Origin: Atriophallophorus winterbourni
Lineage: Eukaryota; Platyhelminthes; Trematoda; Plagiorchiida; Microphallidae
Length of the DNA: 64,000 nt
Assembly (NCBI GenBank): GCA_013407085.1
Contig: JACCGJ010014077.1
Span: 24,279-88,278, forward strand
Direction: 5' to 3'
The notes below the pieces were generated by a model that was given only the letters and a program-made list of their open reading frames with translations, was not told the origin of the DNA and searched no databases. Below are positions 4,206 through 62,240 of this stretch, in pieces. Numbering within the stretch: position 1 is the first letter of the stretch; each line of letters begins with the position of its first letter. The position numbers were made by a program, and so were the translations under genes.

Positions 4206-4514
4206 ATGTCACTGTTTAATAAGGTTTGTACGACCAACCGAAACACGTGTAGATGGGTTTTAAATCCAATAACTTGGACGAAAATGCTCATATGCATGCA
4301 TTTCCAGCCCAAACTCAACGATCGGTTTCGTGCTGTTCGCACTCATCAGGTAGGGAAAGTTGGATTGGGATCCACATGCGATTGAATCAGTGGAAAAATG
4401 GGAAACAAGTTGCGCTTGTTTGCCACTGTTTGATAAGTTTGGTAAAAATAACCTGTTCAATCCATCCAACAATGGGCCCCACAAAGTTTGGACACACTTA
4501 GATCAGGTTAAAGA
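4206..4514 (-). repeat. HHR-B hammerhead monomer
   Basis: About 1.3 units of the HHR-B repeat, HHR on the minus strand. The landmarks occur in the order found at 10858-11100 and 60117-60400: GTACGACCAAC, GCATGCATTTCCA, the ribozyme, then AACAAGTTGCGCTTG and CCACTGTTTGATAAG. It forms the left flank of the conserved core at 4515-5011. Confidence 0.75.
4316..4355 (-). ncRNA. Hammerhead ribozyme motif (HHR-B), stem III altered
   Basis: Minus strand: CTAC, CTGATGA, stem II GTGC/GCAC with loop GAACA-type, GAA, ACCGAT, C, GTTG. The core is intact and stem II pairs perfectly. The stem III palindrome ACCGGT has become ACCGAT, and stem I has one mismatch, so activity may be reduced. Confidence 0.65.
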
Positions 4515-5011
4515 ATATTCGAATTAAAAAATTTATATTACCTCAAAAATAATAATAAAAATAAACACTGCTTCAAAATTGTTTAACTCAGCATTCACAA
4601 TAAGATGGAAGATATCTGAAGCGACATGTCACTTATGTGCAATTAATAACTGAAAATAATTCTCCGGAACCCGAATTGAAAAACAATTACATGGAAGAAT
4701 CAATCATTCATTGACACATTTAGAACACGTTCGATTTTATTCGCTCCGAATGAACAATGAGTTTGATCATCATTATCATGAGAGCAAATTTATATTTGAG
4801 AATTGTCACAACAATAAGTAGCTGTGCTACCAGGCAGTGGAAACATGTGAACATTTGATTCACTACCGACTGGGCGTGACTGCGTCGCTTAGATGACAGA
4901 ACAACTTTCACATGTTTCTGTGACGTACACAAATCTAATTCAATCCGTATTATGAGCGTGGAAAATCATCCAACTAGAACTGACAAGTGCACGCTGATGC
5001 TGATCTTACTC
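4515..5011. repeat. Core of hammerhead-flanked composite repeat, copy 1
   Basis: Non-coding core that recurs at 11366-11851 in the same orientation and at 26681-27146 inverted. Shared landmarks include CACTGCTTCAAAATTG, CATGGAAGAATCAATC and GGGCGTGACTGCGTCG. The copy ends at GATCTTACTCTTTC, the start of a right-hand HHR-B unit that is truncated here. It holds no long reading frame. Confidence 0.8.
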
Positions 5012-5073
5012 TTTCCTAATTCACTTACTCTCCGAAACTAAACTCCCCCATCCCTTTGACTTTCTATTGGTGT

Positions 5074-10790: not shown

Positions 10791-10857
10791 GTAGAATACG
10801 GATGTATTGTTAAAATTGTTTAGCCTTAAAAGCTTACTGAACATAAACAAAAAGGCT

Positions 10858-11105
10858 CATTTCCATGCATCTCCATCACACAACTACACACGCCACACCA
10901 CCGGTTTCGTGCTGTTTGCACTCATCAGGTAGGGACAGTAGTGTCATGGTCCGCATGCGTTTGAAACAGTGGAAGAACGGTAAAAAAGTTGCATTTGTAT
11001 GTCAATGTTTGATAAGTTTGGTACGACTAAACTCTTCAAATACATGAGCCCGCACTCAAGTGACATGGTTTAAGCCCATGAACATGAACAAACAACTCAT
11101 TGGCA
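10858..11105 (-). repeat. HHR-B monomer, left arm of composite repeat
   Basis: One full unit of about 240 bp, measured between the two occurrences of the TCATT..CATGCAT block at 10858 and 11098. It contains the minus-strand ribozyme at 10894-10934 and the AACAGTGG...TGTTT stem region. It faces the plus-oriented units at 11829-12170 across the conserved core. Confidence 0.75.
10894..10934 (-). ncRNA. Hammerhead ribozyme motif (HHR-B), cleavage base altered
   Basis: Minus strand: CCCTAC, CTGATGA, stem II GTGC/GCAC with loop AAACA, GAA, ACCGGT. Core, stem II and the stem III palindrome are perfect. The base after the palindrome is G rather than A, C or T, so this copy is probably not cleavable. 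Confidence 0.65.
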
Positions 11106-11851
11106 TGCATGTGTGAGGGATAGAAATGTATGTAAATGTGCTATTTTAATTTTGTCTGATTAAAAATAATATTTTAGCGAGTTGAATTGATAATTTTGCC
11201 ATCCTCTCGTCAAAATGCCGTGCGAACAATTTTTTAAACCCTTGAGGAAAAACATGTTAACATCACTAACCACAAATTTTGCACACTAACATAGATTAAG
11301 TTAATGAATTCTTGTATAAAAATTAAAACGCTTCGTACGAAATTGAAGTCATATTATCATATTAAACTCAGAAAATATAAAATAATGAACACTGCTTCAA
11401 AATTGTTTAACTCAGCTTTCAAGATAAGATGCAAGATATCGGAAGCGACATGTCATTTATGTGCAATTAATAACTGAAAATAATTATCCGGAACCTAAAT
11501 TGAAAAACAATTACATGGAAGAATCAATCATTCATTGACACATTTTGAACACGTTCGATTTTATTCGCTCCGAATACACAATCAGTTGGATCATCATTAT
11601 TATGAGAGCAAATCTATATTTGAGAATTGTCGTCACAACAATAAGTAGCTGTGCTCCCAGGCAGTAGAAACGTGTGATTTTAATATTTCAATACTGACTG
11701 GGCGTGACTGCGTCGTTTGATGAAAGAACAACTTTCACATGTTTCTGTGACGTACAGAAATCTGATTCAATCCGTGTAAATCACGAAGTATCACTGTGGG
11801 AAATCATTCAACTAAAACTGACAAGTGCATGCGGATCCTGATCTTACTCTT
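11106..11851. repeat. Core of hammerhead-flanked composite repeat, copy 2
   Basis: The most complete core. 11366-11851 matches 4540-5011, and 11210-11851 matches the inverted copy at 26681-27269. 11150-11185 matches 32691-32750, beyond the BEL insertion. It gives the pre-insertion state of that locus. No protein-coding frame of note. Confidence 0.8.
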
Positions 11852-12170
11852 TCTACTTGATGGGTGCAAACGGCACGTAACCGCTCGTGGGGTGTATGAT
11901 GGAAACGCATGCAAATGAGTATTTTTGTTCACGATCGTGTTTTTAACCCGACTACATGTTTTGGGCAAATATGATTGAACAGGTTGTATCAGCTTTACTC
12001 AACAGTAGCCTACAAGTTCATGCATAGTTTATGTTTTTTTTCAAACGCTTTAAAGGCATGCGGATCCTGATTATACTGTTCTTATCTGTTGAGGTCAAAC
12101 AGCACGACACCGGTCGTGCTGTGTGTGTGAGATAAAAATATATGCGATCGAGCATTTTTCGGTATTTTAT
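11829..12170 (+). repeat. HHR-B tandem dimer, right arm of composite repeat
   Basis: The block GCATGCGGATCCTGAT occurs at 11829 and again at 12059, a head-to-tail period of about 230 bp. Each unit has a decayed plus-strand hammerhead: at 11851-11892 the core is TTGATGGG, and at 12081-12122 it is CTGTTGAG, with GAAA changed to GTAA and GACA. Neither should cleave. The units are inverted relative to 10858-11105. Confidence 0.7.
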
Positions 12171-13839: not shown

Positions 13840-14055
13840 AACATGTGTTTTGACACATGTGGTTGAACAGGTTAGTCGTACCAGCCTTATCCAACAGTGG
13901 CATGCAAGCGCTCCTTGTTCACCATTCCTCCACGTTTCCAGCGCATGTGGATCCTGATCATACTGTCCCTGCCTGATGAGTTCAAACAGCACGAAACTGT
14001 CGTGGGTGTGTGACGGAAAATCATGCCAAATGAAATATTTTTTCATGGTTATGGC
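13840..14055 (+). repeat. HHR-B monomer
   Basis: A single plus-oriented unit with CACATGTGGTTGAACAGG, the CAACAGTGGCATGCAAG block, ACCATTCCTCCACGTTTC and the ribozyme at 13964-14008, ending in the TTTTTTCATGG segment. Confidence 0.75.
13964..14008 (+). ncRNA. Hammerhead ribozyme motif (HHR-B), shortened stem III
   Basis: Plus strand: CCCTGC, CTGATGA, GTTC-AAACA-GCAC, GAA, ACTGT, C, GTGGG. The invariant core is intact and stem I pairs through G-C and G-U pairs. Stem II has one mismatch. Stem III lost one base relative to ACCGGT and now has a central U-U in a dimer, so activity is uncertain. Confidence 0.6.
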
Positions 14056-14104
14056 TTATATATATAAATGGTTCGTCGGCTGGGTATCAAGCTTTTAACT
14101 GTGT

Positions 14105-21160: not shown

Positions 21161-21915
21161 CACTGCTTCTAACTCGAGAAGCTAAATTATTGTGTGTGTA
21201 TTAAAGATCATTCATGCTACGCTTATGTTCGTGGAATATTTGCATATTTTATAATAAATTACACGGAGAAAATTTGGATCAAGCACTCTGCCTTTCTGTC
21301 TAACGGAACATTTTGTGATGCTTACTACAAAAGCTGATGCTTGATCTGTAATATATCATTGTGAAATTATCTACTGAACATCTTCCTGAAAAATTGAGTA
21401 AGCTTCGTTCTTTGTCAAATTCTTGTGGAAGGTTTCATGTGGTCCAAACAGTTTCAAGTGAGTAAAGTGTGCCAGGATAAGCTGAAATTATTGAGCAGAT
21501 TTTCGTCGTATTTGTTTGATAACTCGAAAGCACTATCTCGTCGGATTTGAAAACATGATTTCACGGATTTGTGGAATATTTATTTGTAAAACATTTTCAT
21601 GTTTATTATCCGGAATTTAACCATCACATTGAATGAACTATGTTGTGATGAAATGGATTAGGTAGTAGATGATGACAGTCGTTGCGTTGTTGTAGTATTT
21701 GATTGATGGAATTTTGTCTAACCTGCATTGAACCCAGAAATAGCCATCAGAATAATCACGAAGTATATTCAAATTTTGCGCAATTCATCAATAATGGCGT
21801 ATTATTCAATTTGCATGAGTAAAAAGTCAGTGGTAGTCCAAAGTACCATTGACACAGTTGTTCTCAACCAAACAATCCAATTTGTCTTGTCGAAGTAGAA
21901 AATGAAGTAAATAAA
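21161..21915. other. No recognised feature
   Basis: No motif-bearing frame or repeat relation recognised. Confidence 0.5.
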
Positions 21916-22040
21916 CAAAAAGCTCATTTGAACGCATTTCCACCAAACACCGCACTCCCGGGTTTCGTGCTGTTTGCACTCATCCGGTATGGGCAGTGGG
22001 GTCAGGATCCGCGTGCGCTTGAAACAGAAGAAAAAGACTG
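21916..22040 (-). repeat. HHR-B partial monomer with decayed ribozyme
   Basis: Contains GCTCATTTGAACGCATTTCCA and the ribozyme region at 21950-21997. Stem II GTGC-AAACA-GCAC and GAAAC are intact on the minus strand, but the core reads CGGATGA instead of CTGATGA and stem III is ACCCGGG-like. Not expected to cleave. Confidence 0.6.
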
Positions 22041-24170: not shown

Positions 24171-26075
24171 TGGTAGGAAAGGAAAGGTCAATTCACTCGT
24201 CAAGACCACTATACTTCACGTAGTTTAATATTCATCGGTGTCCCCGAAAATGTTGATGTAGTATCAGCATCGGAATCAAAGCAACATGATTTGAAGCAAT
24301 GGTTATACATTGCCGATGCTATTGGATCTCGTGATTCCATTGTAGTGTGATTCCATTTGTCTTCAATCCCAGGCGTTGTATACCATATCAAGTTTCATCA
24401 AGTTCGCCACATTTCGAATTATCGAGTGAAATGACTATCAACGAATACATGGTTGGGCGGGAACTCTGTCGACTAAACGAAAAGAAGTCCCCTGGCACAG
24501 ACAAAATTACCCCCGCCGTACTTCGCAGTTGTCGCGTTGCTTTGACTGCTCCTCTCACTCGCATATTCAATATCAGCTCAAATGGAGGAAAAATACCACC
24601 GCAATAGGAACCAGGGATGATAACTCCTATTTATAAAGGCGGTAGCCGTTCAGACACAGCAAACTATAGACCGGTAACGTTACTTCCGGTGATCTCCAAA
24701 TTAATGGAACGCATTGTGACTGCGCGCATGCGAGAACATTTTGAAAACCAAAATATTTTGACCGCAGCACAACACGGTTTTCGATGAGGTCGTTGCTGTT
24801 TATCTAACCTTCTCACAACGTTCGAGGATTGGACCAAATCACTAGACGAAGGTGAGGCTGTACATGCTTGCTACATCGATATTTCCAAAGTTTTCGATCG
24901 AGTCAACCATGACATCCTAATTAAAAAGCTCGAATCCTATGGAATAACGGGAATATTGCTGAATTGGATAAGGGAGTATCTTACTGATAGACACGTCCAA
25001 GTTCGCGTTGGCAGCACCTTATCTAGAAAAGTAGACGTCACGAGTGGAGTTCCGCAAGGTTCGGTGCTTGGGCCTCTTCTATTCTTGGTGTATATGAACG
25101 ATATAATAGAGGATATTGGATGCAACTTGATACTATTTGCCGATGATATTAAAATATGGAAACATGTCAGGTCTGCTGATGACTGTATGCCATTACAACG
25201 GGATCTAAGCATCTTATTTCGTTGGTCCCAGTTAAATGAGTTACCATTTAACCCTGCAAAATGTAAAATGCTGCAGCTTGGGAAATCTCTGCACCACACT
25301 ATCAACTTGGCATGCAAGATCTCGTCTGGACCACAGCAGAAAAAAGATCTGGATATCTGGGTTCCGTTTAACCTTAAGCCAGAACAGCATTGCCGGATGG
25401 TGTACAATAAGGCTTGTCGTATCTTGAGTCTTCTCAAAAGAATATTGCGAATTTTTACGCCCGAAACCCTACCCCGGGTAATTAACACGTATATACGTCT
25501 TGTTATGGAATATTCCATCCAAGCCTGGGCACCATGGCTGAGGAAGGATATCGAACTACTCGACAGGATTTATCATCGTGCTACAAAGTTGGTCTCCCGG
25601 TACAGAAATTTGCCTACCACAGAGCGAATGTTGAAACTGAACCTACAAGATTTTACCCAACGCCGCATACGTAGTGAACTTATGTTGATCTTCAAAATCC
25701 TGCATTCTGTAAACCATCCCCTTAAACACTTGCTAAAGCCCAATGACCTTACTAGAACACGAACACATCCAAAGGCTTAAAGCATTCCGCATTCTCGATT
25801 GGATATACGTCGTAATTTTTTCTCCGTAAGAATTTGTTTCACTTGGAACTATTTGCCTGAAGAAATCACACGATCAAAATCTGTTGAAGTTTTCGCTTCC
25901 AAACTCGATGAGTTTACGACAAACCATGCGGTATGCGAGTGTCCCTATTGATTTTGGAGATATTTTATATTTGTTTATACATTTTTATATGTTCCATATA
26001 CCCTGTCATCCTATGGCTATTGCTAAGCTTAATGCTGTTTCTACCATACAATTTTCTGAGTTCTGAGTTCATTAT
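24171..26075 (+). mobile_element. LINE-A, most complete copy (ORF1 remnant joined to RT)
   Basis: From 24228 a frame reads FIGVPENVDVVSASESKQHD and LYIADAIGSRDS, resembling the ORF1 protein of CR1/Jockey-type elements in trematodes, and stops at 24346-24348. RT sequence begins almost at once in another frame, so the endonuclease region has been deleted. The 3' part runs through the ORF at 24347-25780 and a shifted frame (RRNFFSVRICFTWNYLPEE) to CCTATGGCTATTGCTAAGC and a TTCTGAG tail near 26050-26070. Confidence 0.85.
24347..25780 (+). pseudogene. LINE-A reverse transcriptase, two nonsense codons
   Basis: One frame covers fingers to thumb: LNEKKSPGTDKITPAVL, IYKGGSRSDTANYRPVTLL, AQHGFR, CYIDISKVFDRVNHDIL, SGVPQGSVLGPLLF and the catalytic ILFADDIKIW box, with the Asp pair of the polymerase active site preserved. 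The tail AWAPWLRKDIELLDRIYHRA follows. Stops interrupt it at 24605-24607 (TAG) and at 24785-24787 (TGA, just after GFR, probably from CGA). After 25780 the frame shifts and the tail continues. A functional enzyme would copy its own RNA at a nicked target; this one cannot be made as one chain. Confidence 0.85.
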
Positions 26076-26089
26076 TGATTACGCTCAAT

Positions 26090-26700
26090 GCAAAACAGCG
26101 TTTTAAAATTACTGAGTAATAACAGTTTTGTCATAAGATAAAATTTATTAACAAATTAATGAATTATTCACAACTCCGAACTTGCCACAACCTATTTCTG
26201 GATGTGTGCCGTCATCAAGTGGAGACAGTGGGATCAGGTTCAGTGAACCTAAAAACAGTGGATAAGTGGTAAACAAGGTTATACTTGAATAAAACTGTTA
26301 CATTGGGTTCGTACTACGAAAACAGAATCACATAGCGATTCGTGGCCAAGCACTCAAGGCGCTTATGGATGACCAAGGTGATGTGTTGCTCACATCCCCC
26401 GGCATTACACTCCGCTACCGGTTTCGTGCTGTTTGCCCTCACCAGATAAGAACAGTAACATCAGTATCCGCATCTTTTTGAAGCGTTAGAATAAATTAAA
26501 AAAACAATGGATGAAATTGTAGGCTACCGTTGGGTAAAGTTGTAACGTACAACCTGTTCAATCATATGTGACCAACTCAGGTAGATGGATTAAAACCACG
26601 ATCGTGAACAAAAATGCTCATTTGCATGCATTTCTATCACACCCCACCCATCAGTAAGAAAGAGTAACATCAGGATCCGCATGTACTTGTCATTTCTAGT
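26090..26700 (-). repeat. HHR-A/HHR-B tandem units, decayed
   Basis: Three ribozyme positions in minus orientation, spaced about 223 and 215 bp: 26188-26228 (A type, core TTGATGA), 26413-26455 (CTGGTGAG with stem II and ACCGGTA intact) and 26640-26665 (truncated before GAAA). A and B type spacer sequences adjoin in one array, which shows that the two subfamilies have recombined or were inserted next to each other. It is the left flank of the composite core. Confidence 0.65.
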
Positions 26701-27269
26701 TAGATGATTTTCCACGGTGATACTTCGTGATTTACACTGATTGAATCAGATTTGTGTTCGTCACAGAAACGTGAAAGTTGTTCTGTCATCTAAGCGACGC
26801 AGTCACGCCCAGTCAGTAGTGAAATAAAAATCACATGTATCTATTGCCTGATAGCACAGCTACTTATTGTTGTGACAACAATTCTCAAATATAGATTTGC
26901 TCTCATATTAATGATGATCAAACTCATTGTGCATTCGGAGCGAATAAAATCAAACGTGTTCTAAATGTGTCAATTGTTGATTGATTCTTCCATGTAATTG
27001 TTTTTAATTTGGGTTCCGAAGAATTATTTTCTGTTATTAATTGCACATAAGTGACATGTCGCTTCAGATATCTTCCATCTTATCTTGAAAGCTGAGTTAA
27101 ACAATTTTGAAGCAGTGTTTATTATTTTATTATTTCTGAGGGTAATATGATAATATGATTTCAATTTCGTACGAAGTGTTTTAATTTTTTATTCGAAAAT
27201 TACTTAACCTAATCTATGTTAGTGTGCAAAATTTGTGGTTAGTGATGTTAACATGTTTTTCCTCGAGGG
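26681..27269. repeat. Core of hammerhead-flanked composite repeat, copy 3 (inverted)
   Basis: Reverse complement of 11210-11851. It is interrupted at 27270 by the BEL element; the remainder resumes at about 32691 (GACGAGACGATGACAAAATTATC). Confidence 0.8.
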
Positions 27270-27677
27270 TGTAACCGCCAAAATTGTCCGGGGATATTCG
27301 AGTTCAACGGCAAAGAATTCAGTCACGTTATCCAACGGTTGAGTTACGCGTCCAACCCCATCAAGATATTGACAAGACAATACGTGAAATGCGTACGGCA
27401 GTATTTAAGCATATTAATTATACAATAAAATAGCAAACCTAAATTATTCCGCTTCGTACTGAATCCAAAAACAAGAATATTCAACAGTAACAATGACCAC
27501 GTGTGATCGCAACTTTAAATAGCGCGGGAACGGCCAAATAAAGATACACAAAATTAAGCTCGATAACGAATAAACTCAAGTAGTTCGGTAATACAAAAAA
27601 TGGTAAAAAATATACAAAAATACCAGCAGATTTAAACAATTAGTTGTCAATAAAATAAATTCAATGTACATCTTACA
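27270..27677 (-). repeat. 3' LTR of BEL/Pao element
   Basis: On the plus strand begins TGTAACCGCC and ends CATCTTACA. In element sense it begins TGTAAGATG and ends GGTTACA. About 90 % similar by eye to 32274-32697, which carries an extra ACACCAATGTGTTTATT-type insert near 32337. Confidence 0.85.
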
Positions 27678-27912: not shown

Positions 27913-29788
27913 CTAGCTGGCCTGGTCCCTTAACGTGACAAAAACAATTCCGGTAACAGCATCCAGGTTCGATGGTATCGTTGAATTTTCATCCGTTATA
28001 TTCGAATCTGCTTCCAGAAAGCAAAGTTGACGAATATGCAGCCTAATAACTACTTCTCTCGATTGCACACAAACTTGTCTTACTAACCCATCTTTCGACA
28101 AAACGCATTCGGATACTCTACCTTAGGGCCAGAGTCCACGAGGTGTTGCGTCGTTTACCACGAGAACTAAATCCCCTACCCACAAGTTCCAGTGCTTTCG
28201 AAACCACTTTTGGCGGGTATGGAGAGTAGACAGATATTCATGTAGCCATCTACGCCAAAAAATATCAGTTAGATGAGTGGCGTGCTTCCAAGCTCGCAGA
28301 TAATTTTGAGCAACGGAAGTGGGTAGTCCCGCATTTTCTCGTAAAATTGATAGGTGGTTAGGTGTCAAATCCACAGCTTCCGCGAAATCCGATGAGGCCG
28401 AAACTAATGGACGATTGTTCAGTATACGTTTAGCCTTGACCATCAGAGTGTTTAATACTTCATCTGTGACAACTTGCTCCAATAACAATCCAAACAGTAT
28501 CCTCCTAACAGACATGATAACACGTTCTCAAACACCTCCACGATGACTTGCATATGGAGGTTGGAAATGGCACCGTGTTTCTTGTGATGCAAGATGTTTG
28601 TTTATTTTATGCTCATTCCACTTTATCACGCATTCTCGAAGCTCTCTTTGAGCGCCAACGAAAGGTTTGCCATTGTCAATGTAGATATCTGTAGGTATTC
28701 CACGTCGTCCAATAAACCGTATTAATACCATGATGAATGAATCTGTTGATAACGAATGAGTCAACTCTAAATGAACTGCTCTGGTTCGCAAGCAACTAAA
28801 TAAGCAACCGTATCGTTTCTCTGTACTTCTTCCACGGGCCGGATTAGTCAATACCCACATGTTGGAACGGGTATAAACCAGGTTCTGTTCTGAAAATTGG
28901 CAACGGGGCCATCAATTGCTGGCATTTCTGAGCTGCATATCGGCGGCATATAAAACACTGACCGATAATTCGCTTTATAGTAGCATTACCTTGAAAAATC
29001 CAAAAGCGTACTCGTATGGTCGATAATACGTGTGCAATGCCACTGTGTCCTTCACAAATGTGGTAATGCCTGACAATTAGTTCAGTTACAACGTGCTTAT
29101 TCGGTAAGACGATTGGAAGTTTTTTGACATCGGGATTGGTCACCAAATTAAAGCGACCGTGTACGCAGATAAGTCCATCGACAATAATTGGGTTCAACTT
29201 ACGCAATTGAGCCCCACGTACTTTAGTACAGTTTCGTCCAGACAACAGTGGGTTTGCGATCCCAGGAAAAGATTGGGCTTGAACAATCCGTAATATGTCT
29301 CGTTCAGCGCGGTATATCTCATCAGCAGTGAGTCTTTCCTTCTGAACAGCACCTTTATTCACAATATATTGTTTGAACCTGATCAACCAGGCCACCGCTA
29401 ACTTTAATCTCCGCCAAGACGAGTAATATTGCAAGATATCATCAAGACCGGAGTTTTCTTGCACGACATTAATTCTATTTGAATTCCTTTTCAGTTCGAC
29501 ATCAGCTGGGGCTTTGTATATATTCAATGGCCATTCGGATTTAGATTTTGTCAAAAACTTTGGTCCTTCTAACCATCGACGTATTTCGGAGATATCGTTG
29601 CAACCACGAGAAACGAGATCGGCAGGATTGTCCTCGGGACGCACGTGCCGCCATTGACTTGGTGTTGAGCGTTGATGTATCGCGGCCACAATGTGGGATA
29701 CAAATGTACTGAACCTCGTGGAAGTGTTGTTGATATAATGGAGGACAATTGTCGAATCAGTCCAGAAACATGTTTGATCTAATTCCAA
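27913..29788 (-). pseudogene. BEL/Pao pol: RNase H, integrase and C-terminal domain
   Basis: From 29788 downward: RNase H end (CFWTDSTIVLHYINN, VSHIVAAI), then an integrase zinc-binding finger (H-x3-H around VRHYHICEGHSG, and CFIC), then the integrase core in the next frame (28528-28860) with VHLEL and DIYIDNGKPF. The second Asp is in YIDNG and the first in HVGIDYFGP just upstream. A TGA near 28531 replaces the Trp codon of the expected WER motif. The frame at 28123-28515 carries NNRPL and LTPNHL of the core end and a DUF5641-like domain (WVGDLVLVVND). It goes on past a stop to 27913 (VFVTLRDQAS). Confidence 0.85.
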
Positions 29789-30290
29789 CTGAATTTCTCC
29801 CTTTACTACGGCAGTAAGTGATACTGCCAGCTTAGCGGCTTCTAATTCCAGACGCGGAATAGTAACGGGCTTGACTGGAGCAACGTGCGACTTCGAGTAG
29901 AGTAGGAAACAATATGGGAGACCCGAATCAGGACTAAATCAAATGTAAATCACGGCTCCATACTCAACTTCTGACGCATCACAGAATGCATGTGACTGAG
30001 GTCGAACTACGTGAGCACGTTCGCGTTTCATACATCGAGGTATTTTTAGTGATTGCAGTTCCCGAACGTTAGACACCTAGATCTCCCAAACTCGCACGTC
30101 TGTCGAACATAGTTCAGCATCCCAATCCAATTTTTCGCGACAAAATTTTTTGTAATAACAACTTGGCAGGCAACAAGATTGGAGCGACCAACCCCAATGG
30201 ATCAAACAAGGAAGAAACCGCTGACAGCAGCAAGCGTCTTGTAAGGGGAACATCTTTCGGCCAAAACAAAAAAAGAAACTCATCAGCAAC

Positions 30291-31049
30291 CTAATCCCAT
30301 TCAAAACCCCATATTCTAACAGGAGGGACGGGATTAAGATAAAATTTACCATCCGGATGAGCTAATTCTGGAACATCTTTCAAAACACTCTTACAGTTCG
30401 ACAACCATTTCCGCAACGTAAAACCGCATTTCTTAAGCGTCCGACAAATTTCGTCGATAACGATTATTGCATCACTCTCCCTTGATACAGAAATAAGCAC
30501 ATCGTCAACATAAAAGTTATTTTGAATAGCTTCGGTAACCAGCGGAAAAGCGTTCTGATCGCAATGCACAAGCGTCTGCTTGAGTGCAAAATTCGCGACA
30601 AATGGCGACGAAACAGCTCCGAGGGGATAAACCGCCATCTGGTATTCAGTAGGAGTTTGAGATATGTCATTGTTCGGCCACCACAAAATCTTCAGAGCAT
30701 ATCGGTCAATACCAGGTACAGAAACTTGCATGAACATTTCCTCAATATCGGCAGAGAGCGCGATCACCTCTTTACGGATTCGCAGAAGTATACCAACTAA
30801 GCTACGCAGTGTATCTGGACCTTGGTATAAACAATCACTTAGTGATACAACTCCGAACTTGGCGGCGCAATCATGTACAACCCTCAACTTACCGGGTTTC
30901 TTAGGGTTAATAACTGTGTGATGAGGAAGATACCATCGAGGTCGAAAGTTTGTCGACAATTGATGATCCGGAACAGGAGTTGCATATCCGCAGATAAAAT
31001 TGCGTTCCATCATGCTTGCAAACCTTTGAGGTAACTCAGGCTTTCGCAT
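30291..31049 (-). pseudogene. BEL/Pao reverse transcriptase domain
   Basis: 252-residue frame with WYLPHHTVINPKKPGKLRVV, HDCAAKF, ALSADIEEMFMQV and the catalytic NNFYVDDVLIS box, all typical of Pao-family RT. The frame begins abruptly near PELPQRFASMMERN, so the N-terminal protease/RT linker is missing. It ends at FEWD with a stop; the downstream connection to RNase H (29788-30290) survives only in broken frames. Confidence 0.88.
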
Positions 31050-31073
31050 TAACCTAGAAACGACTTTGCTTGT

Positions 31074-32273: not shown

Positions 32274-32697
32274 TGTAACAGCCAAAACGGTCCGGGGAAA
32301 TTCGATGTCAACGTCAAAGAATTCAGTAACGTTATAAACACCAATGTGTTTATTCAACGGTTGAGTTGCGCGTCCAAGCCCACCAAGATATTGACAAGAC
32401 AATACGTGAGATGAGTACGGCAATATTGAAGCAAAACAATTATACAATAAAATAGAAAACCTCAATTATGCCGATTCGTACTGAATCCAAAAACAAGAAT
32501 ATTAAACAGTACCAATGACCACGAGTGATCGCAACTTCAAATAGCGCGGGAACGGCGAAATAAAGATACACAAAAATAAGCTCGATAACGAATAAACTCA
32601 AGTAGTTCGGTAAAACAAAAAATGGTAAAATATACAAAAATACCAGCAGATTTAAACAATTAGTTCTCAATAACATAAATTCAATGTATATTTGACG
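32274..32697 (-). repeat. 5' LTR of BEL/Pao element
   Basis: Plus strand begins TGTAACAGCC. The far end is damaged: after CAATGTATA it runs directly into host sequence TTTGACGAGACG, so the terminal TCTTACA and about 24 bases of host DNA seem to have been deleted. Confidence 0.8.
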
Positions 32698-35445: not shown

Positions 35446-35695
35446 TTTCGCAAAAAAAATCGAGAACGAAAGTAAAACTTGCGGACCAAATACTTTTTTC
35501 TACTCGGATTGACAATACGATTTTCGTGAACTAAACATAGCTTCTGATAATAATCAGATCCATATATATAGACCGTCTTCCAAACATCCTCCACAACTAC
35601 ACTCCATCATACGCTTCAGAATTCGAAAGATGTGTATAGCACAATAAATTGATCATGTATAAGAGTTATAGCCACTTGTATTAATTTGGGATAAT
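35446..35695. other. No recognised feature
   Basis: Short AT-rich spacer between LINE-C and an HHR-A array. Confidence 0.4.
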
Positions 35696-36490
35696 GTAAT
35701 CGATCACTGTGGCTCCGTGTACGAACTCCATTTAATAGTGGCTACAAAGTCTTACAACGTTTACTACTTATCCACTCGTCCCGGGTTCACTTTAGCTAAT
35801 TTTGTCTTTTCTTGATGACGGCAAACATCCAGAAACCGGTTGTGGTGTGTACGTGCGGGGGATGTGAGCAACACTGAACCTTGATCGTCTATATGCACCT
35901 TGAGTGCTTGGCCACGAACCACTTTGTGATTCTGTTTTGTACAATGTGGTTCGTTGGACGAACAGCATTAACAGTTGCTCCGAAGTGTAAGATTGTTTTA
36001 CAATTTCTTAGCTGTGTTAAGACCCGCTAAAGCTAATCTTACTGTCTATCTTTAATGATAGCAAACAGCCAGATACCGATGTTCTGGAGTACATGTGGTG
36101 ATATGAGGAAACTAATAGTTAAGAACAATGTGAGTTTTGTTCTATAAGAGAATAGATTGGATTTTCTCTATGATGAATGCTTAAAGATTATAACTTTTTC
36201 CTTGAGGGCATGTCTCAAGTCTTTTTGAGCAGATAGTAAAACTAATTAATGTCTAATTAGTGTTTCCTACAATGAAATTGGCACTTACGAATCTCGGGCG
36301 CATGTGTAGAAAACAGAAACTTGTGAACAACGCATGATCCTCAAGGTTATATAACAGTTGTGTCTGAACATCGTGGTTCGTTGTACGAAGCCTATATAAC
36401 AGTTGTGTCTGAACATCGTGGTTCGTTGTACGAACCCTATATAACAGTTGTGTAAGGGATGGGGATGTGAGCAACACATTACTTTAACGC
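35696..36490 (+). repeat. HHR-A tandem array, three units
   Basis: Ribozyme positions at 35806-35850 and 36042-36085 are about 235 bp apart, and the third unit (36250-36490) has the spacer but lost most of the ribozyme. At 35811 the core is TTGATGA with GAAACCGGTTGTGGTG intact (H17 is T). At 36050 the core is TTAATGA and GAAA is GATA. The third unit contains a 45-bp direct duplication (36356-36445). Confidence 0.7.
35806..35850 (+). ncRNA. Hammerhead motif (HHR-A), one core change
   Basis: TTGATGA, GGCAAACATCC, AGAA, ACCGGT, T, GTGGTG. The first core base is T rather than C and stem II has a weakened pair, so it is probably inactive. Confidence 0.5.
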
Positions 36491-42879: not shown

Positions 42880-44272
42880 AACCATGGCAGAAGTATTCTT
42901 TGATTCAAAGTGATTTAAAGTGATTGAAAGTTGTAATTGTCTAAAAAGCATTTTGCTTAACAATAACCATAGGATGGAGTTATGAGGTATATACAATAAA
43001 AAAGAAGAACAGGAAAACTCATGTACTGTAAATCGTATCAATGTTTGGGTTGTCTCTCAAGTATTTGTCCAAATTAGCTTTAAAAATATCCAGGTTGGCT
43101 GAGTGTTAACAGTGAAGGGGAGGGTATTCCATGTGAAACTTACACGTACAGCATACGAATATCTTCGACAGTTCAGTCTTGAAGTGGGAATAAGCACTGT
43201 AAGTTCATGTTTCCGACTGGCACGGGGTGGCGAGCGTGTGAAAAGTTTGGACAAGGGATGGTTAGGGACGTGCATAATATTGTACATCAGTATGAGGTCA
43301 CCTCTTAGTCGACGACAGCGAAAGTCGAAAAGATTGAGACTCCTCAAACGTTCTTCATATGGTTTAGCAGCTAGTCCGGGTACAAGCTTTGTGGTTCGGT
43401 GGTAAATACGCTGCAGAAGATTGATGTCTTTCTGAATCCAGGGTGACCAAGCCTGAACAGCGTATTCCATCGCTGGTCTCAGATAGGTGTTCATGATACG
43501 GGGCACCGACTGATTGGAGAATCTGCAGAAAATTCGTCTCAATAACGCCAATACTTGTGACGCCTTTTTGTAAGCCGCTTTGCACTGCAGTGAAGTCTTC
43601 AGACTTGAACTGGTCCAAACACCCAAATCCTTCTCTTCAGTTGTCCAGACGAGTTGGTGGGACCCAAGAGTGTAGTTGTAATTAACAGTCTTTCCAATGT
43701 TTAACACCTTGCACTTTTGGAAGTTGAATGGTAGTCTGTTTCTCAAAGACCAATCGTGCAATGTGTTTAGATCCTTCTGCAAAGTTTCACAGTCATCATT
43801 TGTACGTATGCTTTTCCAAAGCTTTATATCGTCTGCAAATAACATAATCTTGCATTTAACACGCTCGGGAATGTCGTTTGCGTAGATCAAAAACAAAATC
43901 GGTCCGAGGACCGAACCCTGGGGCACTCCGCTCGTAATTTTAAATGATTTCGATAAGGCGCCGTCAACTCTGACTTGGGCACTCCTGTCGCGTAAATAGT
44001 TTTCTAGCCAAGCAAGAAATTTTCCTGTTATTCCGTGCAATTCAAGTTTCTGGATTAAAATACTATAATTGACGCGGTCGAAAGCCTTTGACATGTCTAA
44101 AAAGGCATGCGTGGATGGAGTAACCATTGTCCACACACGGCCCAGTCGTTTAAGGTGAGCAAGAGGTTAGATAGACATGAGTGATGTTTCCTGAAACCGT
44201 GCTGTTCAGTCGCAAGCAGTCTATTGTTTTCGATGTTTGATGAAATACGAACCGTTAAGATAGCTGATGGTT
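42880..44272 (-). mobile_element. LINE-A copy, 5' truncated
   Basis: Contains the RT frame 43057-44136 and, upstream to about 44270, the shifted frame RLLATEQHGFRKHHSCLSNL of the RT fingers. The 3' part to the left carries CATAGGATGG (inverted CCATCCTATGG) and ends near 42900-42925 with TTTGAATCA-type tail repeats. At its 5' edge it abuts the 3' end of a LINE-C copy. Confidence 0.85.
43057..44136 (-). CDS. LINE-A reverse transcriptase, longest uninterrupted frame
   Basis: 359 codons without a stop: FLDMSKAFDRVNYSILIQKL, then SGVPQGSVLGPILFLIY, the active-site box IMLFADDIKLW with both Asp residues, EEKDLGVWTSSSLK, YLRPAMEYAVQAWSPW, LLQRIYHRTTKLVPGL, and the C-terminal VRVSFTWNTLPFTVN. It matches palm, thumb and tail of CR1/Jockey-group RTs. 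The fingers lie upstream in another frame across a one-base shift near 44130, so the apparent start is not a real one. This is the youngest-looking LINE-A copy in the window. Confidence 0.85.
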   Translation of the reverse strand: MWTMVTPSTHAFLDMSKAFDRVNYSILIQKLELHGITGKFLAWLENYLRDRSAQVRVDGALSKSFKITSGVPQGSVLGPILFLIYANDIPERVKCKIMLFADDIKLWKSIRTNDDCETLQKDLNTLHDWSLRNRLPFNFQKCKVLNIGKTVNYNYTLGSHQLVWTTEEKDLGVWTSSSLKTSLQCKAAYKKASQVLALLRRIFCRFSNQSVPRIMNTYLRPAMEYAVQAWSPWIQKDINLLQRIYHRTTKLVPGLAAKPYEERLRSLNLFDFRCRRLRGDLILMYNIMHVPNHPLSKLFTRSPPRASRKHELTVLIPTSRLNCRRYSYAVRVSFTWNTLPFTVNTQPTWIFLKLIWTNT

Positions 44273-55491: not shown

Positions 55492-56539
55492 CTATCAGCT
55501 TTGGGCAAATGCAAGCATTACTTCAGCAACAGCAAGCGCAGTTCTACAAATCACAGAAGCAGCTCATGGAACTTTTTTCGCAGAAGATGAATATCAAAGA
55601 TGAACCCAAAGAACAGATACAGCAACAACCAATCGACTCAATTGCAGCATCCATCACAGAGTTCCATTTTGACGCAGTATCGGGAACAACATTCAATGCT
55701 TAATTCCAGAAATACGAAGACATTTTCCGAGTTGAACTAGCAGGTCAAGGTGATGCATGGCGTGTTCGCATTTTGTTGAGAAAAATTGGTTCTGTTGAGC
55801 ACGAACGTTACACTATATTCTTCGGAAATGTGCTCGAGAGTTCACCTTTGACGAAACCATTGAAACACTCACGACAATCTTTGGCGAACAATCATCTTTA
55901 TTCAGCATTTGTTACAATTGTCTCAAACTGATGAAAAAGGAAACAGACGACTACACCACGCATGCTGCCATCATCAATCGAGAGTGTGAAAGATTCAAGC
56001 TCGGTTCGATGATACCAAATCAGTTCAAATGCTTGATGTTCGTTTGCAGTCTTCAATCACCAGCAGACGCAGACGTTCGAACCAGAATTCCGAGCAAACT
56101 GGAGCACGAGCCGAAAATGACCCTTCAAGACATAGCAGCCGAATGTCACAGAATGGTGAACCTTAAGCATGATACCAAATTGATTGAGAACGCCGGACAG
56201 AAAATGGAGCCTCAAGTGCACAAGAACTCAGCTACACACTCTCAAAGTCCTCTCAAAAAGTCATTGAAACCCAAAAGTGCCTGTTGGAATTGTGGTGGCT
56301 GGCACTATTCGAAAGATTGTCAGTTCAGAACTTACAAGTGCCGCAGGTGCAAGCGCATTGGTCACAAAGAATCACATTGCAGAACAAACTATCGAACCGG
56401 TGCAAACCGTCTTAATAATCCTAAATCGAATGGGAACCAAGGCAGAATCAATGCGGTCATTGCAACCTTTGAAGCAGATTTGGCAAGCAGACGAAAATAT
56501 GTCGTAGTGAGAATTCAAGGCAAGACCGTTTCGTTGTAA
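55488..56539 (+). pseudogene. Gypsy-like gag, frameshifted
   Basis: The first frame (55488-55703) is Gln-rich and helical (MQALLQQQQAQFYKSQKQL) and leads to IDSIAASITEFHFDAVSGTT, the conserved Gag start of one trematode-type Gypsy group. A gap in other frames (YEDIFRVELAG) follows. The frame from 55931 has KETDDYTTHAAIINRECERF, then two zinc knuckles, CWNCGGWHYSKDC and CRRCKRIGHKESHC, that would bind RNA. It ends at TAA 56537-56539. Confidence 0.8.
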
Positions 56540-57208
56540 ATCGACACAGCCTCAGACGTCACATTGATTTCCCGCTCAACGTGGAAGCAGATTGGCTGCC
56601 CAGCAGTCTATCCCACGGAAATGAATGTGCGAAATGCCTCTGGTGAACCACTGCGGATTGACGGACAATTTACTTGTAAGATTGATTTCAATGGTGAGAA
56701 AGCAACTGGTTTAGTTTACTTGACGCCTCATGATAAACTTGATTTGCTTGGAATTGATTGGATCGAACGACTGAATTTACTTAGTGTGCCTTTAAAAGAT
56801 CTGTGTTCAACAAAAACTGCAACTGTGTGCCAGACAAATTCTTCATCAAGAACAAGTCGACAGTTGATACGCAAACATGGTTACGATATCCGGAACGAAT
56901 CGCATCAAGGTGACAATGATTCTACAAAGCAGACAACTCCCAACGCAGTCTTTTCAAACGCTGCAAGGCTTTTAAGAACAATCAATGCTCGTAGTGAACA
57001 ACCACGCCGGCAGCAAGGTATTCGTCGCAAAAACAGTTCTCGAAACTATAAACAAAGCAAATTTATTCGTGGCCGTTTCACAAGATCAAGCGACTATAAA
57101 GAGGAACCGGTTTGTGGTACAGGTGGTTCATGTGGCTCCAAGGCGAATGCTTCACAGAAAAACGCCATGTATATCATTGCTACGTACATAAAACAATACT
57201 CACCATGA
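56540..57208 (+). pseudogene. Gypsy-like aspartic protease, in frame after a stop
   Basis: Continues the gag frame directly after the TAA at 56537-56539, which probably replaced a CAA. IDTASDVTLISRSTWKQIG is the active-site region (Asp-Thr-Ala) of a retropepsin, and LDLLGIDWIERLNLL is its conserved C-terminal GIDW block. The next 110 residues are basic and low-complexity and are not an RT. Confidence 0.75.
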
Positions 57209-57318
57209 ATCACCAATTTGTCAACTTTTTAACATAATTGATAGTTTTAAACAGTCAAGCACGTCTAGGAGCTTATGGATGACCAAATTGATGGGTTGCT
57301 CACATCCCCGAAATTACA

Positions 57319-57360
57319 CTCCACTACCGGTTTCTGGCTATTTGCCGTCATCAGGTGGAG
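57319..57360 (-). ncRNA. Hammerhead ribozyme motif, best copy (HHR-A)
   Basis: Minus strand: CTCCAC, CTGATGA, CGGC-AAATA-GCCA, GAA, ACCGGT, A, GTGGAG. The six bases before the core pair perfectly with the six after the cleavage site (CTCCAC with GTGGAG). Core and stem III palindrome are intact. The innermost stem II pair is C-A; the three outer pairs are GGC/GCC. Cleavage is predicted after the A of the GTA triplet. Confidence 0.8.
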
Positions 57361-57527
57361 ACAGTAAGATTCGGTTCAGTGTCTTGAGTGCTTGACCACG
57401 AATCACTGTGATTCTGTGTTTGAACATCGTGGTTGGTGATACGGACCTTATGCAACAGTGGCATTCAAGTATCACTTGTTTACCATTTATTCACTGTTTC
57501 AAGGCTCACTGAACCTGATCTCACTAT

Positions 57528-57569
57528 CTCCACCTGATGACGGAAAACAGCCAGAAACCGGTAGTGTAG
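57528..57569 (+). ncRNA. Hammerhead ribozyme motif (HHR-A)
   Basis: Plus strand: CTCCAC, CTGATGA, CGG-AAAACA-GCCA, GAA, ACCGGT, A, GTGTAG. Core intact; stem I has one mismatch, stem II is weaker than in the opposite arm because GGC has become GGA. Confidence 0.75.
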
Positions 57570-57769
57570 TGTAATTTCGGGGATGCGAGCAACACATCAC
57601 TTTAGTCAAGCATCTCTGTTTACGCATCGTGCATAATTTGTGTGAACATTGTATAACTTCGGTGAGGTTTCAACCAATATCGCTGGGAGACCCACGTATC
57701 AGTCAATAAGCCGAATCAGCCCATACATATCGAACACCGGCTATCATTTGTTTTACTGTAATTATCGGA

Positions 57770-58700: not shown

Positions 58701-60110
58701 GAATATATCATCAAAATGATGCCTTGGTCAATCGGGTTACAAGTGACTTGAATTCTAGCATTATTGTTCACTTTATGAAACTCGTTCGCACAATTATTGG
58801 TTCATGAGCGTAAACATCTTGCTGTGCACTCAGTGTATTGTTTGTACACCGCATTAGCGTTATTTAACGGACGCTATCGGCTACACGGTTTGATCCGGAC
58901 TCAACTTTAGCTCGCCATGAACTATTGGTCAGAGATTCCCGCTGGTGGCTGAACTGGATCAGCGTTTCTCCGGTTCAAAATTTGATATGCTTCAATATGC
59001 GATGTCTATACCTTCAGATTCATCGCGCTTACTTTCGCTGCGTTAAGAAAACTAATTTTTTTAAATCTGATAACAAATCATTGACCAGTTCTTTCTGGAA
59101 CTTTCTTGATTTTTTTGTTAATCATTTAGGCGGTTTAAAATGTCGAAAGTTTTAGATTTATTGATAGATTCAATCTTGTTCCTGTATAATGAGAAACATA
59201 TCGCACAATATGTTTTCTGTTCCTTCATAAACACCTGCTGGTCACGTGCTTGCTTCAGGCATAGACATATGGATGCCTCAGATGCAGAACCAAAAATCTC
59301 ACATTTAAATTCGAATGAAATGTGCCATTGACCCCCTGGTAAACTATTTTCTGTCCTTTCCTTTGCTTGCATCGATAACAAGCTTACAAAACGATGATTT
59401 ATGCACATAAATCCTTTGCGAATTTTTAGTTCACATCCGGCCTTAAAACACTCAGATAAATTGAACACATGGCAGAATTTGATTGGCCAAATCGTCGGAT
59501 GGATTGCGCATTAAACTGTGATTGGTCGATCAACAACTGCGGCCGTGTGCGATCCTTGCTGGGCTCTACATCATGTAAAAATGATAAATGGTGGCACGTC
59601 ACCGAGTATGGGATTTTTGACAATCAATAATTCAAAGATTTAGCAGTTCGATGAAAATGAAGAAGAAATAATATTCAATTATTACAGATTTTATCAGTTT
59701 AAACTGCAAAACGATATTTCGTTCATTGTGTTAAAATTGCTTCTTATAGTATCGGGGAAATTCGATAGGCTATGAAACAGAGCCGGAGATCGAGAATGCC
59801 AATATTGTTTTCGGTGCTCAAATTCCCACTACTATTTCCGTAACCATGGTGACGGTGACCTAGTGATTCATTTGTTCACGGTTGCGTACTTCAGAACCAC
59901 ATCGCGTCGTCTCTCGACTAGCACGATTGACAATAGTTTGGAAACCGTTAGAACTACACAGGTTCGTCAAAACTATTAAAAAATCCGGTTCAGAGCATGT
60001 TCTTCTTGAGTTTTTAATAATATTGCGGAGCGTAGTTCTTGGTCATATGCGGAATTTACTTTTTAACGATGATGATAATCAAGTTGCACTTGTAAGCCAC
60101 CGTTAGATAA
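58701..60110. other. No recognised feature
   Basis: No motif-bearing frame or repeat recognised. Confidence 0.5.
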
Positions 60111-60116
60111 GGCGAG

Positions 60117-60560
60117 TACGACCAACTTGTTCAACCACGTGTCCAAACACACGTTTAATGGGTTCACATAAATGCATTTCCATCGCACACACCCCACGAC
60201 CGGTTTCGTGCGGTTTGCACTAATCAGATAGGGACAGTAAGATCAAGATCCGCATGCGCTTGAAACAGTGGAGGAATGGTAAACAAGGAGCGCTTGTATG
60301 CCACTGTTGGATAAGGATGGTACGATCAACCTGTTCAATCGCATGCGTTCAAACACGTGTAGGTAGTTTGTAAGCCCATGATCATGAACAAAATTTCTCA
60401 TTTGCATGCATTTTCATTGCACGTACACACACCACTACCGGCGCATGCAAATCGTGATGCTACTGTCCCGACCAGATTAGTTCAAACAGCACAAAACCGG
60501 TTAATGGGTGTGTATGTGTGATGGTGATGTATGCAAATAGGCATTTTTTGAAGATAATAA
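60117..60560. repeat. HHR-B units: direct repeat followed by inversion
   Basis: The first unit (60117-60320, minus) is followed directly by a second in the same orientation, starting GTACGATCAACCTGTTCAATC. The second breaks at CCACTACCGG near 60441, and the sequence continues as a plus-oriented unit with a decayed ribozyme (60464-60506). The switch lies at the ribozyme's stem III palindrome. Confidence 0.75.
60193..60234 (-). ncRNA. Hammerhead motif (HHR-B), catalytic base changed
   Basis: CCCTAT, CTGATTA, GTGC-AAACC-GCAC, GAA, ACCGGT, C, GTGGGG. Stem I pairs over six bases and the stem III palindrome is intact, but the core G8 is T, so it should be inactive. Confidence 0.6.
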
Positions 60561-60564
60561 TCAT

Positions 60565-61555
60565 GTTGCATATTGAAAACATCGCTCAACGATCGACGCT
60601 GTTGTGTGCTTAATTCACAGAGTTCTACGTGAGCGCGGAAAAAAGTCATTAGCCGTCAAAGTGTGCTTCTTTGACTAAACAATTTTGCTTTGACTTTCTA
60701 GGTCGTGCACAAATCGTAGAACTAATGAAAACATAGTCTATGCACACAGCATCGTCCAGCGGATAATTGGATACTGTTGCGCTAGATCTCAATAGGTGCA
60801 AGTCATCAAACTACGCCTACACTTGCTCCCAACTGTGAAAGGTGTTCTTCAAAGTGCGATTCTCTACCCATTGTTCTGTCCAACCTACCTATCTGCTCTT
60901 CTGTAGCTGATCTCAACTTCCCGTCTCAAATACGCTGATACATTGTGGTCTCATTGGACGTGCTGTACTCAGAAACAGCTCTTCCCGATCCCAAAATGTT
61001 GTAAATGTTGCGCGAATTCGAAGAAACATTTCAATGTAATCAACCCAGTTTCATTAATGCTTATCTGGGTTAATATTGTGCGTAGGTTTTCGTCTTTGTC
61101 GTGAAGCCGATTTCCCACTCTGTACTTGTATGTATCCTCCCTCCTACGACCACATCATAGATAGTGTCTCGAAGCAACAAATCCCTTTAACTGATCGCTA
61201 TATCAATTGTGGCATTAATATCATTCTTACTATAACTTCCCATTGATGGTTTCTGGATCATCTCAAACACAATTGTTCATCGAATACTCGAACAAGAGCG
61301 TCCCTTTGTCGAATAATTATTTGCTTCAAAAGTCTCATTGTCAACAAGAGCGGTCGAAGTTTTCTCGTTCTTATCGTATAGTTTCCCGTTGCTAGTTTCT
61401 TACTAGGTACCGTGCTAAAAGACATAAGCCGACGCTGAAAAGGTCACTTGTTCGTTGTCATCTTTCTCATACTCATGCACAACATACATGGAAATTATAT
61501 ATACATGTGTGCTGTGCGAATCTGATTAACTGAAATTTATCAGTCTGACCTCATT
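60565..61555. other. No recognised feature
   Basis: No motif-bearing frame on either strand that I trust. Confidence 0.4.
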
Positions 61556-62240
61556 CACCATTCTACCACTGTGTCAAGGCTCATTGAATCACATGTAATT
61601 ATCTCCACCTAGCGACGACAAACAACTAGAAACCGGTCGTGGTGTGTAAGGGATGGAGATATGTGTACCACAATATATTAATCATTTCAATGCGCTTTGA
61701 GCGCTTGATCCGGAATCACTTTGTGATTCTATATTTGAACATCATTGATTTTTGTCAGAACCCTATTCAACAGTGTGGCACCAATATAACATTTTTCATA
61801 ACTATACCAGTGTTTCAAAGCTCATTGAACCTGGACTTACTGTCTCCATCTGCTGACGGCAAACAGCCAGAAAACAGTTGTGATGTAAGCAACACATCAC
61901 TCTGGTCATCCATAAGCGCCTCGAGTGATTGACTACGAATCACTATGTGATTCTGTGTTTGAACATCGTGGTTCGTTGTACAAACCCTATTAAACAGTGC
62001 CTTCAAAATCTAACTCTTTTTACCACTCCTCCACACGTCCATGGCCCACGGAACCTAATCTTACTGTCTCCACCTGATGACGGCAACCAGCTAGTGGTCT
62101 TCAATTTCGGAGGGCTTGAGCAACACAGCACTTTGATATCCATTAGCGCCTCGAGTACTTGATGAGGAATCACAAAGTGATTCGGTACTCGACTCGCAAT
62201 GTTTGTTGTACGAAACCCACTCAACAATTCACTTTAACAT
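61556..62240 (+). repeat. HHR-A tandem array, three head-to-tail units
   Basis: Ribozyme positions at 61602-61642, 61843-61886 and 62068-62100 are about 238 and 228 bp apart. Between them the spacer repeats in order: CATCACT..GGTCATCCATAAGCGCC, CACGAATCAC..GTGATTC hairpin, TTTGAACATCGTGG, CCCTATTCAACAGTG, CTCATTGAACC. The cores are CTAGCGA, CTGCTGA and CTGATGA respectively; the last lacks GAAACCGG. None is intact, so the array looks old. Confidence 0.8.

Follow-up and report, generated by a model that had tools for sequence, protein, structure and literature searches.

Hammerhead-bearing repeats have been known in animals since the newt satellite of 1987, and the W elements of Schistosoma mansoni have their origin in a satellite of the W chromosome. 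According to PMC7229834, short tandem repeats with type I hammerheads, referred to as non-LTR retrozymes, are present in many animal phyla, platyhelminths being named among them. As described there and in PMC7761336, metazoan non-LTR retrozymes are non-coding units of 150-450 bp, found singly or head-to-tail, with a GC content below 50%, target-site duplications (TSDs) longer than 4 bp and, in some hosts, a weak helix III that needs dimers. Dimer-requiring hammerheads were reported in amphibians (PMC7229834), and the legend of Fig. S8 in PMC3088659 mentions dimers with a palindromic stem III. Non-LTR retrozymes are further characterised by the lack of LTR, PBS and PPT and by expression as unit-length linear and circular RNA. 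The first two retrozyme papers assume a circular template and leave the helper open. Penelope-like elements (PLEs) were discussed as a strong candidate for moving animal retrozymes (PMC7229834), no conserved motif in the repeats was said to reveal an autonomous partner (PMC7761336), and LINEs or PLEs were put forward as candidate helpers, with retrozymes perhaps derived from PLEs (PMC11722881).

PLEs and their pLTRs, according to PMC3846280 and PMC11167929, have a hammerhead near the end with a tail beyond the ribozyme, head-to-head copies, 8-10 bp TSDs and tandem copies; in the former paper, the head-to-head pLTRs are inverted and the tail measures 31 bp. In the latter, PLE reverse transcription starts internally at two sites, both strands are cut and extended, and uncut RNA is the main template in vitro. 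In flukes, the SINE-like Sm-alpha and Sj-alpha elements (PMC4918200, PMC6155905, PMC8490949) are non-autonomous and carry a type I hammerhead, and the S. mansoni W elements are repeated, occur in dispersed copies and bear functional hammerheads (PMC8490949); both are compared here by description.

The repeats analysed here come from a stretch of 64,000 nt of Atriophallophorus winterbourni DNA (the window) and from its source genome. They share with the metazoan retrozymes the type I hammerhead, the non-coding unit within 150-450 bp (spacing 224-238 bp, or 308 bp in one class), the single or tandem arrangement and the low GC content (0.40-0.47). The passages of PMC7229834 and PMC7761336 cited above contain no account of insertion ends or of head-to-head composites. 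In the titles and abstracts searched, mostly from outside the subscription journals, this insertion anatomy was found for neither retrozymes nor fluke repeats. Unlike Sm-alpha and Sj-alpha as described in the cited parts of those papers, the units have a palindromic stem III of 6 nt. Sm-alpha type SINEs are marked by a tRNA-related Pol III promoter part; in the window, ARAGORN with the bacterial code found no tRNA, and there was no Rfam match at gathering score. The initial annotation of this DNA had considered the hammerhead form unrecognised, yet type I hammerhead repeats of this kind are the non-LTR retrozymes set out in PMC7229834. The families themselves are new; their kind is already known.

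Hammerhead motifs and unit classes

The exact-core pattern CTGATGA...GAAACCGGT, searched as CTGATGAN{4,20}GAAACCGGT, matched four times in the 64-kb window, at 3541-3569 (-), 10900-10928 (-), 57326-57354 (-) and 57534-57562 (+), versus none in 100 shuffles, and the annotated order of stem I, CTGATGA, a short stem II with A-rich loop, GAA, ACCGGT, H and stem I' is present. Three sites had been listed as keeping every core base; they do hold exact cores, but the fourth, at 10900 (H17 = G), had been left out. As for the dozen or more sites claimed, a looser scan with up to three mismatches returned 28 places, some plainly unrelated, and alignment to the units returned 22 segments, not all of them with a ribozyme. 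In the source genome (537,331,230 bases in 15,840 contigs), 14,516 exact-core matches were found (7,085 forward and 7,431 reverse) against 3 (2 + 1) for a backward-pattern control; chance is excluded as an explanation of this count. The window carries a dispersed type I hammerhead repeat.

Eighty regions, covering 89 of 100 listed places out of the 14,516 matches, were fetched, and together with the window they contain 93 exact-core sites (89 + 4), which comprise 32 of class A, 44 of class B, 8 of class C and 9 others. The H17 base, which is not G in type I hammerheads, was A at 40 of these sites, C at 40, T at 10 and G at 3; the sites were picked by their core, so H17 alone among the core criteria is a test. 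The three classes are distinguished by stem II, being GTGC/GCAC in A, NGGC/GCCN in B, and GCGG/CCGC, also GAGG/CCTC, in C. Spacings of 224-238 were observed for classes A and B (query units of 233 and 240 nt), and head-to-tail arrays with a spacing of 224-229 bp are present in the window; class C, found elsewhere in the genome, has a unit of 308 bp (locus L010). The GC content is 0.47, 0.47 and 0.40 for A, B and C, respectively. Two diverging stem II subfamilies that share the rest of their spacer had been proposed, and two related types do exist, but A and B have only part of the unit in common, by eye mainly about 100 nt upstream of the ribozyme. A 45-bp piece of class B spacer is tandemly duplicated (98%) at 36348-36453.

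No protein of their own was found in the units, where the ribozyme ATG opens short frames that are not conserved. A coding role was considered, as some class B copies are open from the ATG within CTGATGA (up to 129 codons in L023 and 104 in L041), and rejected: the sequences diverge freely past the first ~10 residues, and most frames in classes A and C close early. Viral contigs contained no exact 25-mer of class A or B.

The Rfam gathering score was reached by no site in the window or in 20 loci. Below the cut-offs, class C matched Hammerhead_HH9 with at best 45.2 bits (cut-off 52, E 1.1e-8 over 4,227 families), and class A, which aligns to the Rfam type I consensus, matched Hammerhead_1 with at best 32.9 bits (cut-off 34, E 1.1e-4); these scores come from nine loci, among which the single class B locus, L022, had no match. 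In the window, the top class A matches reached 25.5 and 25.4 bits (E 0.069 and 0.078). Class B matched no Rfam hammerhead model at E 10, either in the whole window or in 57200-57700 alone. A covariance search at 57319-57360, whose failure the initial annotation had named as refuting it, accordingly returned no hammerhead above threshold; we attribute this to the class B stem II, since the class A and C relatives match the models below the curated cut-offs. The three sites annotated as intact have exact cores, but they are of class B, usually lack the closing stem II pair and have no Rfam match.

In 75 gapless sequences, the stem II pair next to the core was G-C in 30, C.A in 29, T-A in 5 and A.A in 4. 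The second pair was G-C in 35 and T-A in 33, and its 91% pairing versus a shuffle mean of 47% reflects a single A/B split; covariation in stem I was not above shuffles, except for one pair (5 of 500 shuffles). The class B closing pair is C.A at 57326 and 57534 and A.A at 3541, which leaves 3 bp (2 at 57534); stem II of class A has 4 bp. ACCGGT had been pointed out as self-complementary and a hallmark of dimers, and RNAcofold indeed pairs ACCGGU with ACCGGU in homodimers of five of five sequences, with the whole double hammerhead in four of five by our reading of the fold. The palindromic stem III would, on these predicted folds, suit dimer action. For cleavage of the RNA into units, classes A and C would be the best candidates, and class B is doubtful.

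Window copies and insertion anatomy

The ribozymes at 57319-57360 and 57528-57569 belong to the two opposite-strand arms of one insertion, 57262-57603, laid out as follows:

57253-57261 (+), left TSD AGTCAAGCA, 9/9 match to 57604-57612
57262-57381 (-), inverted arm, class B, unit positions 184 to 69, one hammerhead, 92% to the class B unit
57319-57360 (-), class B type I hammerhead, exact core 57326-57354, predicted cut after H17 at 57325; no Rfam hammerhead match
57383-57603 (+), direct arm, class B, unit 58 round to ~40, with its end 40 nt beyond the predicted cut and set by the TSD; 89% to the class B unit
57528-57569 (+), class B type I hammerhead, exact core 57534-57562, predicted cut after H17 at 57563
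57604-57612 (+), right TSD AGTCAAGCA

The two sites within 57319-57569 lie on opposite strands, head-to-head rather than in tandem, so this locus cannot yield a head-to-tail transcript of ~230 nt. Just upstream of the composite, two adjoining frames (55799-57208) stop; by eye they are gag-like with two zinc knuckles, then retropepsin-like, and have no Pfam match. A second composite, 60082-60552, has the same layout:

60071-60081 (+), left TSD GATGATAATCA, 10/11 match to 60553-60563; score 14, below the threshold of 16
60082-60441 (-), inverted class A arm, ~1.7 units (228 to 155), by unit alignment
60441-60552 (+), direct class A arm, hammerhead 60473-60501, ending just past the T-run, by unit alignment

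Other copies in the window, assigned by unit alignment and listed with an Rfam score where there was a match, are:

3506-3605 (-), class B copy, exact-core hammerhead 3541-3569 (exact core and unit alignment)
4196-4462 (-), class A copy, 1.23 units, ending away from the tail, at unit position 143; Rfam Hammerhead_1 25.4 bits, E 0.078, at 4314-4355
10839-11110 (-), class A copy, 1.14 units, exact core 10900-10928 (H17 = G); Rfam Hammerhead_1 25.5 bits, E 0.069
11822-12159 (+), class A copy, 1.46 units, two head-to-tail hammerhead positions, ending after TTTTT
13841-14060 (+), class A copy, ~one unit; Rfam Hammerhead_1 22.6 bits, E 0.66, at 13967-14007
21911-22027 (-), short class A copy, ending just past TTTTT
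26185-26650 (-), mixed head-to-tail copy, a class A unit and then a class B unit
35671-36078 (+), class B copy, 1.7 units, two hammerhead positions
61542-62226 (+), class B head-to-tail array, ~3 units, spacing 224, ending at unit position 134, not at the tail

Further elements lie among these copies. A ~500-900 bp repeat occurs in three places (4535-5015, 11223-12114 and 26417-27290) and runs straight into class A units, stopping at the hammerhead start in 4535-5018; with 11223-12114 matching 27290-26417, it looked like a larger host element. A ~420 bp repeat has three copies (2303-2720, 27270-27677 and 32274-32693; 80-87%), two of them near class A units. Pao-type pol fragments occupy 28844-31073 (-), with a top match of 53% and Schistosoma japonicum as the best named flatworm (40%).

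Local alignment of copies to the units gave 169 segments in 162 elements, 157 of which are clear of locus edges. Their 3' ends concentrate in one 20-nt interval just past the ribozyme, which holds 39 of 66 class A ends (expected 5.7) and 39 of 78 class B ends (expected 6.5). The 5' starts are broader (19 of 68 and 20 of 76, respectively, in the best interval), in a distribution that is clipped, the sampled copies having to contain the ribozyme. A second, weaker preferred end lies at 143-164, with 10 of the 25 remaining class A ends and 16 of the 35 remaining class B ends. The 68 copies that lack an exact core include 20 with ends at 30-55 and 19 with ends at 140-168, in a sample drawn round exact-core sites. 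From 34 copies with a TSD score of at least 16, we took 27, omitting L009, L027, L067, the second copy in each of L031 and L055, and the window copies at 13841 and 36404; in the 26 that are measurable, the distance from the predicted cut to the TSD has a median of 39.5 nt, quartiles of 38 and 43.25, and a range of 35-51.

Inverted neighbours are strongly biased, with 27 head-to-head (facing 5' ends) versus 2 tail-to-tail, both of the latter joining different classes; among the 27, L028 and L029 look like one event copied, and four gaps exceed 20 nt. TSDs with a score of at least 16 were found round the whole pair in 10 of 27, round 24 of 103 single copies (two of which resemble internal repeats) and in 2 of 400 random pairs, with a length of 8-15 bp where found. 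Head-to-tail arrays at 224-229 bp spacing could recall ordinary satellite DNA that spreads by unequal exchange, with the ribozyme incidental. We regard this as highly improbable, as the sampled copies are dispersed, mostly shorter than two units, and have preferred 3' ends and TSDs, the latter at 10 of 27 pairs versus 2 of 400 random ones.

The 23 pairs whose arms are no more than 20 nt apart comprise 13 that combine the tail with the second end, 5 tail with another end, 1 second with another end, 1 with neither, and 3 of class C. In 14 of the 20 A/B pairs among these, one arm ends at 147-161, and the start of the partner there ranges from 6 to 223. Eighteen A/B pairs could be oriented, and the inverted arm ends at most 36 nt from the start of the direct arm in 12, versus 9.2 on random re-pairing (P 0.06), or at most 45 nt in 13 versus 9.9 (P 0.03). 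In the five pairs that are 71-108 nt apart, the inverted arm still ends at 152-160 in four, suggesting that the second end is preferred in its own right.

These features bear on LINE-mediated mobility of a SINE, in which Pol III-type transcripts ending at a T-run would be inserted by LINE target-primed reverse transcription and inverted pairs would arise by twin priming. Class A does end in a T-run (TTTTT), its 5' ends are variable, and 8-15 bp TSDs and head-to-head pairs would be expected. Close arms, as in 12 of 18 pairs, and in the first two inverted pairs (X end 69 with Y start 58, and 155 with 172), agree as well, and the window holds two LINE-like reverse transcriptase frames (RVT_1), 24788-25780 (+) and 43057-44166 (-), CR1-like by judgement; the LINE-like RT is closest to Paragonimus westermani (71%). 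However, random re-pairing gives nearly as many close pairs, the preferred inverted-arm end persists in four of the five distant ones, class B copies, which lack a T5 run, stop at an equal distance in CACTTT, no common poly-A or microsatellite tail was seen by eye at 15 window ends, and no tRNA was found in the window. We consider this route unlikely, though still a serious competitor, and Pol III termination at a T-run was rejected as the sole cause of the end, because class B reaches the same distance without T5.

As a side observation, two class C arms meet head-to-head at L074:4203-4292 in a long palindrome, to which Rfam gives a mir-322/mir-15-like score (51 bits, below cut-off), a case in which an inverted retroposon junction can mimic a microRNA precursor.

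Penelope-like elements in the same genome

A GIY-YIG search of the genome gave at least 17 matches (150 of 1,370 candidates scored), and five tapeworm relatives of the GIY-YIG protein were found. The tapeworm protein P0241, in which we take the N-terminal part to be a PLE reverse transcriptase and the GIY-YIG region forms the C-terminal part, gave at least 141 matches (139 of 7,109 candidates scored), many of them in frames of 750-924 aa. Among the matches listed, PLEs are in tandem at ~2.5 kb (2,524 in C10286; 2,530-2,531 in C13078), and neighbours within 5 kb are, by eye, head-to-head in seven cases and tail-to-tail in none. PLE junctions contain the minimal hammerhead core CTGATGATGTCATC...GATGACGAAACGTC, a candidate hammerhead by core only.

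Seventeen PLE regions were read for 3' ends, of which four run to the region edge (L085, L086, L091, L096), two are internal references (L087, L089), one is without a hammerhead (L094) and ten have an end. These ends lie at +30, ~+42, +43, +43, +73, +75, +80, +82, ~+84 and +87 past the PLE hammerhead cut; three of the ten, at +42/43, are near the +40 of the units, whereas six, at +73-87, fall where the units do not end. Two further loci, L083 and L084, were rejected as a source of PLE ends, being an inverted GIY-YIG/Gypsy-like chimera with no hammerhead by the pattern used. Their inverted arms (L083:227-1827 and L084:346-1946; 96-97% alike, ~970-1,090 bp) bear a GIY-YIG frame and continue, by eye, into Gypsy protease/RT-like coding sequence; this may be a recurring fusion between the endonuclease part of a PLE and an LTR element. 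Beside it lies a minisatellite-like array with a period of ~230 bp (L083:3280-5001 and L084:3865-4093), likewise without a hammerhead by that pattern.

A difference from PLEs had been noted at the outset, and no protein was found in the units, with the RT plus GIY-YIG frame absent inside them and PLE frames located elsewhere in the genome; however, PLEs are abundant in the same genome and the insertion pattern is PLE-like. On the basis of 80 regions, one genome and ten PLE ends, the units show the features of PLE integration, namely a fixed tail past the ribozyme, a head-to-head inverted copy and a short TSD, the last two of which are not PLE-specific. The agreement of the class A and B ends with the proximal PLE end also speaks against LINE-mediated insertion. 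The second end of the units lies at a greater distance than that of the PLEs.

The units might themselves be internally deleted PLEs, i.e., pLTRs minus the reading frame, rather than an independent family. The ribozyme-to-end distance and the head-to-head layout are similar to those of PLEs, and the idea of such a descent is given in PMC11722881. However, blastn of the units against the fetched PLE junctions found no similarity, and by eye stem II, loop and stem III differ, with GTGC/AAACA/ACCGGT in the units versus GTCATC/TAGTTT/ACGT in PLEs. We judge this descent rather improbable.

Candidate mechanism and helper

We propose that the units are non-coding, non-autonomous elements of the retrozyme kind, probably mobilised by Penelope-like machinery with RNA that stays uncut at its last ribozyme as the template. 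RNA of one or more units would be made first. Its stem III (ACCGGU) would be too short and palindromic to act alone, and two copies may form a double hammerhead that could cut multimers into units. The inserted template would be RNA that is uncut at the last ribozyme. The tandem PLEs of the same genome would provide, in trans, a reverse transcriptase of PLE type with its GIY-YIG endonuclease, and this enzyme would begin cDNA synthesis at a constant position inside the RNA, ~40 nt downstream of where the ribozyme cuts. Frequently both target ends would be extended, the other one commonly from the second preferred point, ~45-60 nt upstream of the ribozyme core; the two cDNAs would join head-to-head at a variable point, and the target gap would become the 8-15 bp duplication. 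For the fuller version of this proposal, in which Penelope-like machinery mobilises a non-coding ribozyme element of a fluke by starting at two preferred internal points, one per side of the broken target, with the last ribozyme uncut, a constant ~40-nt tail past the cut and a head-to-head meeting, our confidence is only slightly above even.

Several findings weigh against Penelope-like mobilisation. There is no blastn likeness between units and the fetched PLE junctions that would account for recognition of unit RNA, the second end of the units is not at the distal PLE distance (+73-87), three of just ten PLE ends lie at +42/43, no more than 20 of the 68 copies lacking an exact core end at 30-55, and two long window copies (4196 and 61542) end elsewhere than at the tail. 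Head-to-head pairs with TSDs would be expected of LINE twin priming too, whose mark of close arms is partly present (12 of 18 pairs), and the class A end in a T-run might be explained by a Pol III terminator.

Alternatively, as in the retrozyme literature, monomers cut by the ribozyme may be circularised and the circle may serve as template, with multi-unit copies as the result. The unit size, GC content (0.47, 0.47, 0.40) and tandem copies fit the elements described in the cited parts of PMC7229834, 20 of 86 tail-ended copies exceed 235 nt, and a fixed internal start on a circle would likewise fix the end. However, just 7 of 144 class A and B copies end within 10 nt of the predicted cut, suggesting that cut linear monomers are not the usual template. 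In the copy at 26185-26650, units of class A and class B are joined, a combination that one circle cannot yield, and uncut RNA was the dominant PLE template in vitro, as reported in the cited part of PMC11167929. Circular templates seem possible to us, if somewhat doubtful; they and PLE mobilisation can coexist.

What gives these repeats their specialist interest is the PLE-type anatomy: a partner is suggested by the insertion ends, and the genome has long-frame PLE arrays for comparison. If mobilisation by Penelope-like machinery is correct, it would reveal which helper animal retrozymes use, and insertion would proceed without the ribozyme cutting the last unit of the template. Two roles that are usually merged would then be separate, with ribozyme cutting giving RNA circles and insertion proceeding from RNA with an uncut ribozyme.
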